This document shows positions 29,994 through 34,535 of a DNA stretch of 34,535 nt, in pieces (position 1 is the first letter of the stretch; each line of letters opens with the position of its first letter). The notes below the pieces were generated by a model, which searched no databases, was not told where the DNA came from, and saw only the letters and a list, made by a program, of their open reading frames with translations. The stretch lies in the NCBI GenBank assembly GCA_004299085.1, contig SCQV01000221.1, forward strand, positions 1 to 34,535, in the 5' to 3' direction. Made by a program: the position numbers and the translations under genes. This DNA is from Chitinophagaceae bacterium (GTDB lineage: Bacteria; Bacteroidota; Bacteroidia; Chitinophagales; Chitinophagaceae).

Positions 29994-30024
29994 TTTGGAG
30001 AATATTGAGTGAGTACTATCTTTG
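29994..30024 (+). promoter_or_regulatory. Consensus promoter of the sulfite reductase leader
   Basis: TTTG (29994-29997), a 19-nt spacer, and TATCTTTG (30017-30024) match the Bacteroidota consensus at every fixed position. Transcription should start near 30031, about 20 nt before the Cys-rich leader ORF and about 200 nt before the sulfite reductase ATG. That leaves a long leader unlike the short ones elsewhere in the window. Confidence 0.75.
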
Positions 30025-30051
30025 CATCACTCTATTAATCCTATAGACTAT

Positions 30052-30120
30052 ATGAAAGTTAGATTCTGTTCATTCCGAATGTGTAATGGCTGCTGTAATT
30101 TATACCGGCAGGCAGGTTAG
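30052..30120 (+). CDS. Cys-rich leader peptide (22 codons) of the sulfite reductase operon
   Basis: A short ORF starts at ATG 30052 and stops at TAG 30118-30120. It begins MKVRFCSFRM and continues CNGCC before ending in YRQAG. Four of 22 codons are Cys (30067, 30082, 30091, 30094), the last two adjacent. It lies on the leader between a consensus promoter and an intrinsic terminator, directly upstream of an enzyme of cysteine-precursor synthesis. This is the design of an amino-acid attenuation leader such as those of trp or his operons, here sensing charged tRNA-Cys. The peptide itself probably has no function beyond being translated. Expression is inferred, not shown. Confidence 0.7.
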   Translation: MKVRFCSFRMCNGCCNLYRQAG

Positions 30121-30176
30121 GCATATAGACCATATTGTATAAGATGTTTTGGTGTACTTGTTAAAAGCCTTTCCTG
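30113..30176 (+). promoter_or_regulatory. Candidate antiterminator helix of a cysteine attenuator
   Basis: CAGGTTAGGC (30113-30122, covering the leader-ORF stop codon) can pair with GCCTTTCCTG (30167-30176) at 8 of 10 positions with two central U-U mismatches. The second strand is the 5' arm of the terminator, so the two folds exclude each other. A ribosome stalled at the Cys pair (30091-30096) would leave the first strand free; a ribosome at the stop codon would cover it. The mechanism is inferred from this geometry. Confidence 0.55.
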
Positions 30177-30200
30177 AATAAAAAGTGAGAGGCTTTTTTT
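30163..30200 (+). terminator. Intrinsic terminator in the leader, upstream of the sulfite reductase gene
   Basis: AAAAGCCTTTC (30163-30173) pairs with GAGAGGCTTTT (30187-30197) as an 11-bp stem with one G-U pair and a 13-nt loop, and a run of seven T's occupies 30194-30200. It lies 35 nt before the sulfite reductase ATG and downstream of that gene's own promoter, so it must be conditional for the gene to be expressed from that promoter. Confidence 0.8.
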
Positions 30201-30234
30201 ATGAAACAGTTTAAATTATTATAAACACACACGC

Positions 30235-32340
30235 ATGTTAAGTTTTCGTACTGAATTGGAAAATCCTGTGGTAGAAAAAGAAATTCTGGAATTAGACAGG
30301 AAGATTAAGGCGTATCGCGATGGTACGATGCCTGAGCAATATTTCAAAAGCCTGCGACTGGCAAGGGGTATTTACGGACAAAGACAGAAAGGCGTACAGA
30401 TGATACGCATTAAGTTACCGCACGGGAGGCTGAAATTATCACAATGGAAACGCATTGCTGATATTGCTGATGAATATGCTACGGGCAAATTGCACCTGAC
30501 TACCCGGCAGGATATACAACTGCATTTTGTGAGCCTGGATAAGACTCCTGAGCTGTGGGCCAGGCTGGCGGAAGATAAAATCACTATAAGGGAAGCTTGT
30601 GGAAATACGGTCAGAAATATTACGGGTGCTGCTTTTGCAGGCATTGATCCGGATGAACCGTTTGATGTTACGCCTTATGCGCAGGCTGCTTTTGAATATT
30701 TTGTACGCAATCCTATCTGTCAGGATATGGGCAGGAAATTTAAAATTGCTTTTTCTTCCAGTGAAAAAGACAATGCGTGGAGCTTTATTCATGATGTAGG
30801 ACTTATTCCAAAAATAAAAGAACAAGATGGAAAAACGATTCGTGGGTTTAAGGTTTTAATCGGGGGAGGGCTTGGCGCTCAGCCCTATTTAGCGCATGAA
30901 GTGTTCGATTTTTTGGAAGAAGATGTGGTATTCCCATACATTGAAGCGGTTATTCGCGTATTCGACCGTTATGGTGAAAGAACCAACCGGATGAAAGCGC
31001 GCATGAAATATCTGATTGCCAAATTAGGTCTGGAAGAGTTTACACGCCTCGTAAAAGAAGAATGGAAAGCATTAAAAAATAAGCATTTTCAAATCCCGTT
31101 GATTGAAGAAGAAATAAAACTTCCATCTGTTCATATACAATTGCCGGAGATAAAAATAAATAGTCAGGAGCAATATGAAAGGTGGAGAAAAACCAATGTA
31201 TTTTTGCAGAAGCAATCCGGTTATTTTGCCGTGGGTATTCGAATTCCATTAGGAGATATTTCCACGAACACCTCAAGGCAATTAATTGAAAAGCTAAAAC
31301 CATTTATTGCAGATGATGTGCGGGTGACTCCCAACCAGGGTTTCTTGCTGCGATTTATCAAAGAAGAACATCTTCCTCATGTGTTCAGTATTTTGGAAGA
31401 GGAGCATGTGGATAAGGCAGGTTTTGACAGTACCGCAGATATCACTGCCTGCCCGGGCACTGATACCTGTAATTTGGGAATCAGCAGCAGCACCGGCATT
31501 GCCGAAGCTTTAGAGGAAGTAATTGAATACGAATTTGAAGATTTGATTTACAATAATGATATCCACATTAAAATAAGCGGATGTATGAATTCCTGCGGGC
31601 AGCACGGTATTGCCGAGATTGGATTCCATGGAAGCTCCATGCGGAGTGGTAAGTTAACGTTACCTGCATTACAGGTCTTGTTAGGTGGAGGAATCATAGG
31701 AGAGGGTAAGGGGAGGGTAGCGGATAAGGTGATAAAAATCCCGAGCAAAAGAGGTCCCGATGCACTTCGGCTCTTAATGCATGATTATGAGACGAATAAA
31801 CAGGACCGCGAACGGTTCAATGATTATTACGACCGGCAGGGTAATAAATATTTTTATGCCTTGTTAAAGCCGCTCACTGATTTGGAAAATATTCAGGAAA
31901 GTGATTTCATAGACTGGGGCAGGGAAGAGCAGTTTGTGCCTGCCATTGGTACTGGGGAATGTGCCAGCGTAGTGATTGACTTAATTGGTGCTCTGTTGAC
32001 AGATGCCGGAGAGAAGCTGGATTTTGCCGGTGAAGCTATGGAGGAATTCAGGATGGCAGACGCTATATATCACGCTTATTCCTCTTTTATTAATACCGCG
32101 AAGGCGCTCTTATTGGATAAAGAAATTGTATGCAATACGCAAATCGGCATACTTAAAGATTTCGATCAGTATTTTAGCGAGGAGAAAACTTTTTCTTTTC
32201 CCAGAGGATTTCGTGAATATGTTTTAAGAATTAATCAGCATGAGCCGGAGTTTGATTTTGCCACCGCCTATATTTCTTCTGCAAAAGAATTTTTGGAAAA
32301 TGCAAAGATCTATCGTGAAGAAGGGGCCTTGGTAATATAG
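30235..32340 (+). CDS. Siroheme-dependent sulfite (or nitrite) reductase with C-terminal HEPN-like domain
   Basis: The 701-residue enzyme has the duplicated ferredoxin-like/siroheme architecture of sulfite and nitrite reductases. The first half contains QMIRIKLPHGRLKLSQW and TGKLHLTTRQDIQLHFV (siroheme-binding arginines); the second has the 4Fe-4S/siroheme ligands TACPGTDTCN (C406, C412) and ISGCMNSCGQHG (C450, C454). Residues about 580-695 form an extra helical domain of HEPN type (AMEEFRMADAIYHAYSSFIN) not found in E. coli CysI. The following genes make siroheme, and the Cys leader upstream favours sulfite rather than nitrite as substrate, producing sulfide for cysteine synthesis. The electron donor is not encoded nearby. 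Confidence 0.92.
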   Translation: MLSFRTELENPVVEKEILELDRKIKAYRDGTMPEQYFKSLRLARGIYGQRQKGVQMIRIKLPHGRLKLSQWKRIADIADEYATGKLHLTTRQDIQLHFVSLDKTPELWARLAEDKITIREACGNTVRNITGAAFAGIDPDEPFDVTPYAQAAFEYFVRNPICQDMGRKFKIAFSSSEKDNAWSFIHDVGLIPKIKEQDGKTIRGFKVLIGGGLGAQPYLAHEVFDFLEEDVVFPYIEAVIRVFDRYGERTNRMKARMKYLIAKLGLEEFTRLVKEEWKALKNKHFQIPLIEEEIKLPSVHIQLPEIKINSQEQYERWRKTNVFLQKQSGYFAVGIRIPLGDISTNTSRQLIEKLKPFIADDVRVTPNQGFLLRFIKEEHLPHVFSILEEEHVDKAGFDSTADITACPGTDTCNLGISSSTGIAEALEEVIEYEFEDLIYNNDIHIKISGCMNSCGQHGIAEIGFHGSSMRSGKLTLPALQVLLGGGIIGEGKGRVADKVIKIPSKRGPDALRLLMHDYETNKQDRERFNDYYDRQGNKYFYALLKPLTDLENIQESDFIDWGREEQFVPAIGTGECASVVIDLIGALLTDAGEKLDFAGEAMEEFRMADAIYHAYSSFINTAKALLLDKEIVCNTQIGILKDFDQYFSEEKTFSFPRGFREYVLRINQHEPEFDFATAYISSAKEFLENAKIYREEGALVI

Positions 32341-32440: not shown

Positions 32441-33229
32441 ATGTCAGTTAGAAATTCAATATCAGAAAAGAAGCCGCGGCTGACTTTGGTGGGTGCCGGT
32501 CCTGGAGACCATGAACTGATAACCATTAAAGGCGCTAAAGCTTTGCAGAATGCAACCGTCATTTTGTATGATGCTTTAATAGATCCTAAAATATTTGAGT
32601 ATGCTTCGCCGCGTGTTATCAAACGTTTTGTGGGGAAACGTTGCGGCTTACACACGTATTCACAGGAAGAAATTAACGAAATGATTGTGAGTTATGCCCT
32701 TACTTATGGTCATGTGGTCAGGCTAAAAGGCGGCGACCCATTTGTTTTCGGCAGAGGTTATGAAGAATTGGCTTATGCAGGAAGCTTTGGGATTGAAACT
32801 GAGATAATTCCTGGAGTTACAAGTGCTACTTCTTTACCTGCATTAAAAAAAATCCCTTTAACCACACGCGGGCTGAATGAAAGCTTCTGGGTATTGACAG
32901 GCACCACTGCGGATCGTAAAGTATCGAATGATATATTTTTAGCCGCACAAACAAACGCTACTGTGGTCATCCTGATGGGATTGAAAAAGCTGGGTGAAAT
33001 TACCGAAATTTATAAAGAAGCCAACAAGGAAAATTTGCCGGTAGCTATCATTGTAAATGGCAGCCTTCCGAATGAACAATTTATTACAGGCACAATAAAA
33101 GATATCGGATTAAAGGTGAATGAATCTGATATCCATGGGCCGGCGCTGATACTTATTGGAGAAGCAGTAAGCTTACAGTTAGATAAAACCGCAACCTTTA
33201 TTAAAAATATAGAAAATCAATTAGCCTGA
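32441..33229 (+). CDS. cobA: Uroporphyrinogen-III C-methyltransferase (SUMT)
   Basis: This 262-residue enzyme uses two S-adenosylmethionine molecules to convert uroporphyrinogen III to precorrin-2, the first step to siroheme. The family motifs are clear: LVGAGPGDHELITIKGAKAL at the N-terminus, VVRLKGGDPFVFGRGYEELA (SAM-binding region), EIIPGVTSATSLPALKKIPL, and VVILMGLKKLGEI. It is the single-domain form, not fused to CysG N-terminal or HemD domains. It begins 100 nt after the sulfite reductase gene and its stop codon shares one base with the next gene's start (33229), so it is in the siroheme operon, supplying cofactor to the reductase. Confidence 0.96.
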   Translation: MSVRNSISEKKPRLTLVGAGPGDHELITIKGAKALQNATVILYDALIDPKIFEYASPRVIKRFVGKRCGLHTYSQEEINEMIVSYALTYGHVVRLKGGDPFVFGRGYEELAYAGSFGIETEIIPGVTSATSLPALKKIPLTTRGLNESFWVLTGTTADRKVSNDIFLAAQTNATVVILMGLKKLGEITEIYKEANKENLPVAIIVNGSLPNEQFITGTIKDIGLKVNESDIHGPALILIGEAVSLQLDKTATFIKNIENQLA

Positions 33230-33819
33230 TGAATGCTGGCCACGATAGGAATACATTATTCCCTGTTTTTTTAAAAACAGATCGTCTTCGTACGCTTATT
33301 GTTGGTGGAGGACATGTTGGATTCGAAAAGCTGCGGGCAGTGATTACTAATTCCCCTGATGCAACTATTACTTTAGTCGGGACGGAGATTCTTCCCGAAA
33401 TAAAAAAGCTGGCTTCACTTTCATCGAATCTTCAATTAGCTGAAAGAGACTTTTCCGGTTGCGATCTTTACGCAAAAGATATAGCTATCATTGCGACAAA
33501 TGATGCCGCCGAGAATAAAAGGATCCACGACATCGCCAAATCCATGCGGGTTTTAGTGAATGTTGCTGATACGCCGGATTTATGTGATTTCTACTTGGGA
33601 TCTATTGTGCAAAAAGGAAACGTCAAAATTGCTATTTCTACGAATGGCAAATCTCCGACTGTGGCAAAACGGATCCGCGAAGCACTCACAGACTTAATTC
33701 CGGATGAAATGGAAGAATTGCTGAGCAATTTGGAACAAATCCGGAAAAAGATAAAAGGGAATTTTGCAGAGAAGGTAAAACAACTTAATAAAATAACTTC
33801 TTCCCTTGTAGAAAAATAA
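33229..33819 (+). CDS. Precorrin-2 dehydrogenase / sirohydrochlorin ferrochelatase-type protein (SirC/CysG-N like)
   Basis: The 196-residue enzyme has the NAD-binding loop LIVGGGHVGFEKLRAVITN, AIIATNDAAENKRIHDIA, and the conserved LVNVADTPDLCDFYLGSIVQ with the Asp that serves both activities in Met8p and CysG. The phrase ISTNGKSPTVAKRIREAL follows. It oxidises precorrin-2 to sirohydrochlorin; whether it also inserts iron is uncertain, because at 196 residues it is SirC-sized and no separate SirB chelatase is visible in the window. Translation is coupled to cobA by a 1-base stop/start overlap. With cobA it completes most of the siroheme branch. Confidence 0.93.
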   Translation: MNAGHDRNTLFPVFLKTDRLRTLIVGGGHVGFEKLRAVITNSPDATITLVGTEILPEIKKLASLSSNLQLAERDFSGCDLYAKDIAIIATNDAAENKRIHDIAKSMRVLVNVADTPDLCDFYLGSIVQKGNVKIAISTNGKSPTVAKRIREALTDLIPDEMEELLSNLEQIRKKIKGNFAEKVKQLNKITSSLVEK

Positions 33820-33864: not shown

Positions 33865-34535
33865 ATGCTTATGCTTAGTTTGTCACAATTAATAATCCGC
33901 CTGGTATTGGCTACCGTGCTGGGCAGCTTGGTCGGATTGGAACGTCAACGTTTAGATTGGGCCGCCGGTCTTCGAACACACATGATGGTATGCGTGGGAA
34001 GCGCTTTGATAGTCATCGTTTCCGCTTATGGATTTAATGATGTCATCCTTGCCGGTAAGATCATGTTAGATCCTTCAAGAATAGCCGCGCAGGTAGTCAG
34101 TGGTATTGGATTTTTAGGAGCGGGGACTATTTTATTTTTAAGACATGAAGTAATCCGCGGATTGACCACGGCAGCCGGATTATGGACGGTAGCAGGCATT
34201 GGCCTGGCAGTAGGAAGCGGGTTATACCTGGCGGCTGTTATTACCACTGCTTTGGCGCTTATTATCCTTGCCCTGATAAAACCCCTGGAGAGACGAATGT
34301 TTTTCAGGAAAAATATGAGGACCATCAATTTAATTATCAACAGGCAGATTGCTTCCCTCGAATTAATTGAACAAGCCATTAACCAGGAAAAATTAGATTT
34401 GATGCAAATGGTCGTGCAACGCGGCGATAATCCGGACGAGGATTATGTGAAATTACTATTGAGCCACAGCACTCCGAGAGAGAAAGTGCCCCCGCTTTTA
34501 GATAAATTCAGAACATTAAACGGAATTAAAGAAAT
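33865..34535 (+). CDS. MgtC/SapB-family membrane protein (truncated by window end)
   Basis: The reading frame from ATG 33865 (or 33871) stays open to the window edge, giving 223 residues without a stop. The N-terminus LIIRLVLATVLGSLVGLERQ and the segments AAGLRTHMMVCVGSALIVIV, SGIGFLGAGTILFLRH and RGLTTAAGLWTVAGIGLAVG are the MgtC/SapB signature, with about four to five helices. A soluble C-terminal domain begins near residue 150. MgtC proteins are linked to Mg2+ limitation and inhibition of F-type ATP synthase in some bacteria; the role here is not known. It lies 45 nt after the siroheme genes on the same strand and may be co-transcribed. Confidence 0.92.
   Translation, partial: MLMLSLSQLIIRLVLATVLGSLVGLERQRLDWAAGLRTHMMVCVGSALIVIVSAYGFNDVILAGKIMLDPSRIAAQVVSGIGFLGAGTILFLRHEVIRGLTTAAGLWTVAGIGLAVGSGLYLAAVITTALALIILALIKPLERRMFFRKNMRTINLIINRQIASLELIEQAINQEKLDLMQMVVQRGDNPDEDYVKLLLSHSTPREKVPPLLDKFRTLNGIKE

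Follow-up and report, generated by a model that had tools for sequence, protein, structure and literature searches.

How could the expression of a sulfite reductase gene be tuned to the supply of cysteine (Cys) in a member of the Bacteroidota? The question is raised by the leader region in front of such a gene on contig SCQV01000221.1 (assembly GCA_004299085.1) of a Chitinophagaceae bacterium, analyzed here over positions 1 to 34,535 of the forward strand (34,535 nucleotides (nt) in full length, hereafter the window). The leader carries a short upstream open reading frame (uORF) with clustered Cys codons, followed by an intrinsic terminator. Its sequence makes it very probable that the leader acts as a ribosome-mediated transcription attenuator, sensing charged transfer RNA (tRNA)-Cys and controlling sulfite reduction. 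If the three genes downstream form one transcript, siroheme synthesis would be under the same control. The window leader appears to belong to a family of Bacteroidota Cys attenuators, present in many, not most, of the regions examined. The parts of the leader, its mutually exclusive folds, the recurrence in relatives and the specificity for Cys are direct readings of sequence and computation.

Organization and folding of the leader

The original prediction had described a consensus promoter, a 22-codon open reading frame (ORF) with four Cys codons including an adjacent pair, an intrinsic terminator with seven T residues, and a helix competing with this terminator. The first three parts were found as described (Table 1). 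The TTTG and TATCTTTG boxes, with a spacer of 19 nt, fit the Bacteroidota promoter consensus TTTG/TAnnTTTG (PMC7366714; here and below, statements on cited papers refer to the accessible parts of their texts). The uORF starts about 20 nt past the transcription start site deduced from these boxes, and its Cys codons 6, 11, 14 and 15 start at 30067, 30082, 30091 and 30094. By both sequence and fold, the terminator is located between the uORF and the first gene, the distance from the uORF stop to the reductase gene start being 114 nt. The terminator stem (30163-30197) has an energy of -15.5 kcal/mol when folded alone, and termination is predicted.

The competing helix was confirmed in part. The pairing of 8 out of 10 bases between 30113-30122 and 30167-30176, seen by inspection, exists, but the antiterminator of lowest energy extends further and is somewhat shifted in register (30109-30112 with 30173-30176, 30114-30118 with 30166-30170, and 30120-30123 with 30159-30162). 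A trp-like protector helix between strands 1 and 2 had been overlooked.

In attenuators of the trp/his type, codons for the end product are clustered in the leader peptide, and the leader RNA forms a 1:2 protector, a 2:3 antiterminator and a 3:4 terminator. The folds of the window leader follow this four-strand trp logic. In the ribosome-free fold, 30106-30114 is taken up by the Cys-codon region, and the terminator is formed. If a ribosome is placed on Cys14 or Cys15, a transcript ending before the 3' arm of the terminator folds into an extended antiterminator hairpin, in which 30109-30123 pairs with 30159-30176. For a ribosome at the uORF stop, no antiterminator forms and the terminator alone remains.

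The following mode of regulation can be proposed. In it we infer where transcription starts, that the uORF is translated, that ribosomes stall on it and transcripts end at the terminator, and in which direction the system responds. When Cys is sufficient, the ribosome would reach the uORF stop and cover the antiterminator strand, leading to formation of the terminator. When charged tRNA-Cys is low, the ribosome would wait at Cys14/15 and cover strand 1; strand 2 would then be free to pair with the 5' terminator arm, and RNA polymerase would read through. When the uORF is not translated, the 1:2 helix would capture strand 2 and the terminator would form.

Cys units upstream of sulfite reductase homologues

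Upstream regions of reductase homologues were collected from 12 loci of a first search, 80 named loci and, for the remainder, from searches by order and class. After removal of duplicates (5 of 158 regions) and of regions with less than 200 nt upstream (5 of 238), a total of 233 distinct regions was obtained. L177, of which the contig ends at the match, and likewise L344 were not used, and the matches G240, G683, G524, G446:C72, G605 and G581 were left out because the match was incomplete, weak or truncated by the end of a contig. A unit was defined as a uORF of 8-60 codons whose Cys residues are spaced C.?C and whose stop is followed after 5-62 nt by a terminator-like hairpin, the terminator finder being a simple custom script that requires a T tract.

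Units were detected on the coding strand in 96 of the 233 regions, with an ATG-started uORF in 93 of them, and on the reverse strand in 1 of 233. For units with adjacent Cys residues the counts were 92 and 0, and for those with three consecutive Cys residues they were 60 and 0. Shuffled regions gave 0.4 adjacent-Cys units per 233 (mean of 5 rounds), and 436 kb of strand from loci around cysD and cysS, scanned as controls, gave 4 units, one of them a real-looking leader near cysD. The expectation that relatives should carry a short ORF with clustered Cys codons was borne out for these 96 regions. The T tract, also expected to be retained, is present in all counted units but is required by the scan itself.

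By source, the units were found in 5 of 12 regions from the first search, 22 of 75 named regions, 34 of 61 from further members of the order and 35 of 85 obtained by searching the class. Among the 22 named positives are species of Chitinophaga, Mucilaginibacter, Pedobacter and Rhodocytophaga, a Fulvivirgaceae bacterium, and metagenome-assembled genomes labelled Cyclobacteriaceae and Flammeovirgaceae, which we take to represent three orders. Some of the counted negatives, including L031-L033 (CxxC), L083, L085 and L090, resemble units by eye. The leader peptides vary widely across lineages, and the Cys runs persist, reaching ten Cys codons in L012, a length striking in itself. Since the peptides diverge while the Cys runs stay, repeated origin or fast turnover of the units seems likely.

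Tandem arrangement of two adjacent-Cys units, each consisting of uORF and terminator, was observed before the sulfite reductase gene in 24 of the 233 regions (L010, L133, L137, L139, L143, L146, L148, L149, L150, L151, L153, L156, L157, L191, L202, L210, L212, L292, L297, L301, L304, L331, L334 and L341).

Palindrome at the putative transcription start

For comparison within the genus, a single relative, G001, was searched. The promoter, a palindrome-like element at the putative transcription start, Cys11, Cys14, Cys15 and the terminator stem are all retained in G001, and there is no difference in the 40 nt from the -7 box through the palindrome to the start codon. Over its first third the uORF cannot be aligned, and its stop is shifted downstream.

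The palindrome suggests a second, protein-mediated layer of control. Its regular expression matched 11 of the 233 upstream regions and none on the reverse strand. Palindromes like ASTCTAYWAAWHYTATRG are located directly after the -7 box in the window, L003, L031-L034, L038, L039, L115 and L117. A protein bound to this site, perhaps of Rrf2 type, might even be the main regulator, with the leader as a relic. The identity of the element in G001, its same position in Chitinophaga leaders and its retention without a Cys uORF in L003 and L034 are in favor of such a role, as are the Rrf2-like C-terminal ends (labelled by eye) that precede the reductase in L004 and in several Mucilaginibacter loci. 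We nevertheless consider it very unlikely, because Cys11, Cys14, Cys15 and the terminator were kept in G001 while the neighboring sequence was not, and because the palindrome is found in far fewer regions than the C.?C unit (11 against 96 of 233). Matches to the palindrome elsewhere in the searched genomes precede varied genes or none, indicating no regulator, and none of the three Rrf2 proteins of the bacterium's own genome was linked to it.

A spacer block of 25 nt (30141-30165) is also identical in G001, inside an otherwise diverged leader. It includes a six-codon ORF that ends at the terminator arm. The sequence of this ORF was seen in just two of the 233 regions, L001 and L002, which are the window and G001.

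Codon specificity of the leader peptides

The specificity for Cys was analyzed with ATG-started uORFs only, in the 82 of 153 regions with a terminator-like hairpin. Of these, 51 contained Cys-Cys and 36 Cys-Cys-Cys, where 1.6 and 0.1, respectively, were expected. A comparable excess of runs was seen for no other residue, the next being Met-Met (13 against 0.7 expected). A reading of the (TGY)n repeats as runs of Leu or of Val/Ala instead of Cys was rejected, since ATG-started Cys-Cys-Cys in 36 of the 82 regions compares with 4 for tripled Leu, 1 for Ala and 1 for Val. When GTG and TTG starts were allowed, tripled Leu appeared in 32 of the 233 regions against 60 for tripled Cys; the tripled Leu was put down, without separate test, to TTG starts within the repeat. 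The Cys codons of 113 adjacent-Cys units consist of 341 TGT and 193 TGC.

This prominence of Cys among the residues bears on a different explanation, in which the terminator and leader constitute a metabolite- or protein-sensing switch, such as a riboswitch, a T-box or the target of an RNA-binding protein, and the uORF is incidental. Many amino-acid operons elsewhere employ switches of these kinds, and the 25-nt spacer block is identical in G001 without apparent cause. Against such a switch stand the persistence of Cys runs in otherwise differing leader peptides and the lack of any Rfam 15 match at the gathering score, both in the window and across 16 related loci. We consider a switch of this kind extremely unlikely.

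Methionine was observed next to the Cys runs. A non-initial Met adjoins the run at position -1 in 41 and at position +1 in 34 of the 113 units, the levels for comparison being 16 of 793 residues further upstream and 49 of 6194 off-frame. The stretch MCMCMCMCCC in L334 is an example. The enrichment could reflect joint sensing of Cys and Met, a second start codon near the run, or the pairing needs of the RNA.

Conservation of the antiterminator and other helices

For 67 units from 57 loci, antiterminator formation was compared with 60 shuffles of each spacer. Upstream pairing of the 5' terminator arm had a median probability of 0.74 with the ribosome stalled at the last Cys, 0.16 with the ribosome at the stop, and 0.45 for shuffled spacers. 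Part of the contrast between stall and stop follows simply from the smaller amount of RNA exposed at the stop; the comparison with shuffles is free of this effect. Against the shuffles, 29 of the 67 units gave p <= 0.05 and 42 gave p <= 0.1.

Within a group of five related leaders, the antiterminator is paired in all 40 of 40 cells (at most 48.5% when the partners were slid), the terminator is 95% paired (slid, at most 50%) with two doubly compensated pairs, and the protector, with strand 1 just before the Cys codons, is 87.5% paired (slid, at most 40%). The terminator pairing was equalled in 1 of 500 column shuffles. Among seven leaders of Mucilaginibacter/Pedobacter type, pairing of a five-pair antiterminator amounts to 97.1%, with one pair changed on both sides, a count equalled in 161 of 500 shuffles. 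Compensatory changes, which the original prediction had expected in both helices, were thus found for the terminator, while for the antiterminator the single pair is within the range of chance. For a third group, A5, RNAalifold indicated the terminator and another long helix, not the proposed antiterminator; this result was given no weight.

The uORF might alternatively act on translation of the sulfite reductase, by coupling or by unmasking of its start, as reported for the polycysteine uORFs of mycobacteria. This is exceedingly improbable, since a terminator stands between the uORF and the gene, the uORF stop is 114 nt away from the gene start, and many units have stems of 13-15 base pairs in the scan, while the Actinobacterial leaders were reported to have no conserved terminator hairpins (PMC1262725).

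Cys units upstream of other genes

A search for runs of six Cys in ten genomes led to cysteine synthase loci. The best NCBIfam match of this synthase is cysM, below its cut-off, and a gene with a JAB domain follows in the single case scanned. Of 21 homologues in total, 19 had at least 200 nt upstream, and Cys units were detected in 13 of these (L402, L403, L405-L413, L415 and L416), in tandem for L405. The loci without a unit are L404 (just 207 nt), L417, L418, L419, L421 and L422. Because the CysM-type synthase belongs to the same pathway, these units give independent support for cysteine as the signal.

No unit was detected before cysS in the 23 cysS loci scanned. In 30 cysD loci and 20 longer stretches upstream of cysD, one convincing unit was found (G155). 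It is located at 3576-3770 of L274, before an ORF of 201 amino acids (aa) upstream of cysD, and is the sole one in the 20 stretches. Another scan match near cysD, in L236 (11 aa), was dismissed by eye. On the reverse strand of L389, at a contig end of G155, there are tandem poly-Cys units of which the downstream gene is cut off.

Assessment of the attenuation model

As far as sequence allows, the interpretation as Cys attenuation is supported by the recurrent Cys units, the helices and the specificity of the Cys runs. Several observations weigh against it. The unit is absent, by the definition used, in 137 of the 233 regions; among nine full-length loci of the same family from the first search, it is present in the window and G001 and absent in the other seven (L003-L009). 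The Cys codons of the uORF are only partly conserved in G001, Cys11, Cys14 and Cys15 being kept but Cys6 (30067) lost. Tested alone against shuffled spacers, neither the antiterminator of the window (p = 0.33) nor that of G001 (p = 0.15) is significant, and the combined p of about 4e-21 for the 67 units is valid only for independent units, which these are not. Column shuffles of the five related leaders reached the observed values in 500 of 500 rounds for the antiterminator and in 301 to 500 of 500 for the protector, and are uninformative because those columns hardly vary. As for the cysteine synthase, all 13 units are among the 14 homologues above 374 bits, a cut chosen after the result was known, and 2 of the 13 loci had prompted the search.

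The full-length stalled leader, moreover, still holds the terminator at equilibrium. For attenuation to operate, the switch must therefore be kinetic, with the antiterminator forming first, and in known attenuators it is by forming first that the antiterminator wins.

A more extended system is possible, though we hold it only tentatively. It would be a repeatedly evolved regulon for sulfur-containing amino acids in Bacteroidota, in which leader peptides rich in Cys and Met sense both charged tRNAs, sulfite reductase and the CysM-type synthase are controlled, and in some lineages a doubled attenuator makes the response steeper, as its two termination decisions, taken one after the other, multiply.

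Comparison with known leader-peptide systems

As in the trp/his attenuators, the window leader combines clustered codons for the end product with a protector, a predicted antiterminator and a terminator. It differs in that the codons are for Cys, the organism belongs to the Bacteroidota, the uORF starts close to the putative transcription start, and tandem units exist among its relatives. A leader with two short ORFs is known for mgtCBR of Salmonella, for which the signals are Mg2+ and ATP. These two ORFs in one leader are thought to control transcription into the operon (PMC3641672); mgtCBR responds to other signals than the leaders described here and, in the text available, is not a doubled amino-acid attenuator.

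The type of mechanism is thus known, and Cys versions are in print for cysS of Rhodobacterales and for Actinobacteria. The uORFC-8-2 motif, a tandem-Cys uORF with two stems and a terminator, was predicted to act by attenuation and is described as occurring exclusively before cysS in Rhodobacterales (PMC8632094). It shares these elements with the units described here, which in contrast precede sulfite reductase and the CysM-type synthase and none of the cysS genes scanned. In Actinobacteria, runs of Cys codons are present in uORFs before cysteine-biosynthesis genes, as here, without conserved terminator hairpins (PMC1262725), whereas the window uORF is followed by a terminator. The polycysteine uORFs of mycobacteria are reported to be leaderless and to act on translation in M. 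smegmatis (Canestrari et al. 2020, as cited in PMC13236596 and PMC9031893).

For Bacteroidota, leader-peptide attenuation is little described in the texts available. In Flavobacterium psychrophilum, attenuation of amino-acid biosynthesis operons by leader peptides was inferred from transcript maps, and the accessible text, supplements aside, names no cysteine attenuator among these likewise Bacteroidota leaders (PMC9723704). Short ORFs resembling leader peptides are mentioned for the phylum, again with no cysteine attenuator named in the parts available (PMC9723704, PMC7366714). No report of a Cys attenuator in Bacteroidota was found in open-access full texts, most subscription papers and supplements being outside this scope. 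The mRNAs of Bacteroidota are described as being without classical Shine-Dalgarno sequences (PMC7366714). A Cys attenuator that recurs and can be recognized from sequence permits a direct test, by genetics, of whether coupling of transcription and translation in this phylum is tight enough for trp-type control. It also illustrates a possible way of adjusting assimilatory sulfur genes and could be used as an expression part that responds to cysteine, and the tandem units provide a ready system to ask what effect a doubled attenuator has.

Genes downstream of the leader

Table 1. Location of leader elements and adjoining genes in the window (G001, same-genus relative)
Feature	Position	Strand	Basis or remark
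TTTG box (-33)	29994-29997	+	matches the consensus quoted in PMC7366714
-7 box TATCTTTG (TAnnTTTG)	30017-30024	+	within the 40-nt stretch 30016-30055, same in G001
Palindrome-like element ACTCTATTAATCCTATAG, probable operator at the putative transcription start	30029-30046	+	same place in Chitinophaga leaders
Leader uORF MKVRFCSFRMCNGCCNLYRQAG, then stop	30052-30120	+	22 codons; stop at 30118-30120
Cys codon 11	30082-30084	+	kept in G001
Strand 1, overlaps Cys codons	30087-30095	+	pairs with 30106-30114, -10.3 kcal/mol
Adjacent Cys codons 14-15 (TGC TGT), proposed stall site	30091-30096	+	kept in G001
Strand 2, 5' side of antiterminator, overlaps uORF stop	30109-30123	+	pairs with 30159-30176, ribosome on Cys14/15
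Six-codon ORF MFWCTC, then stop; abuts terminator	30144-30164	+	in the 25-nt block identical in G001
Intrinsic terminator (strands 3 and 4), T7 at 30194-30200	30163-30200	+	sequence and fold
Nitrite/sulfite reductase-fold protein, 701 aa, assigned as assimilatory sulfite reductase	30235-32340	+	Pfam NIR_SIR and NIR_SIR_ferr
cobA (uroporphyrinogen-III C-methyltransferase)	32441-33229	+	TIGR01469 above cut-off
sirC/CysG N-terminal-type precorrin-2 dehydrogenase	33229-33819	+	TIGR01470 above cut-off

The 701-aa protein was below the cut-offs of NirA, CobG, CysI and the other NCBIfam models for sulfite or nitrite reductase. Its assignment as a sulfite reductase is based on the adjoining siroheme genes and on the Cys leader itself, the latter argument being partly circular. 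A gene for an MgtC/SapB-family protein (33865-34533) starts 45 nt past the siroheme genes and runs off the contig.

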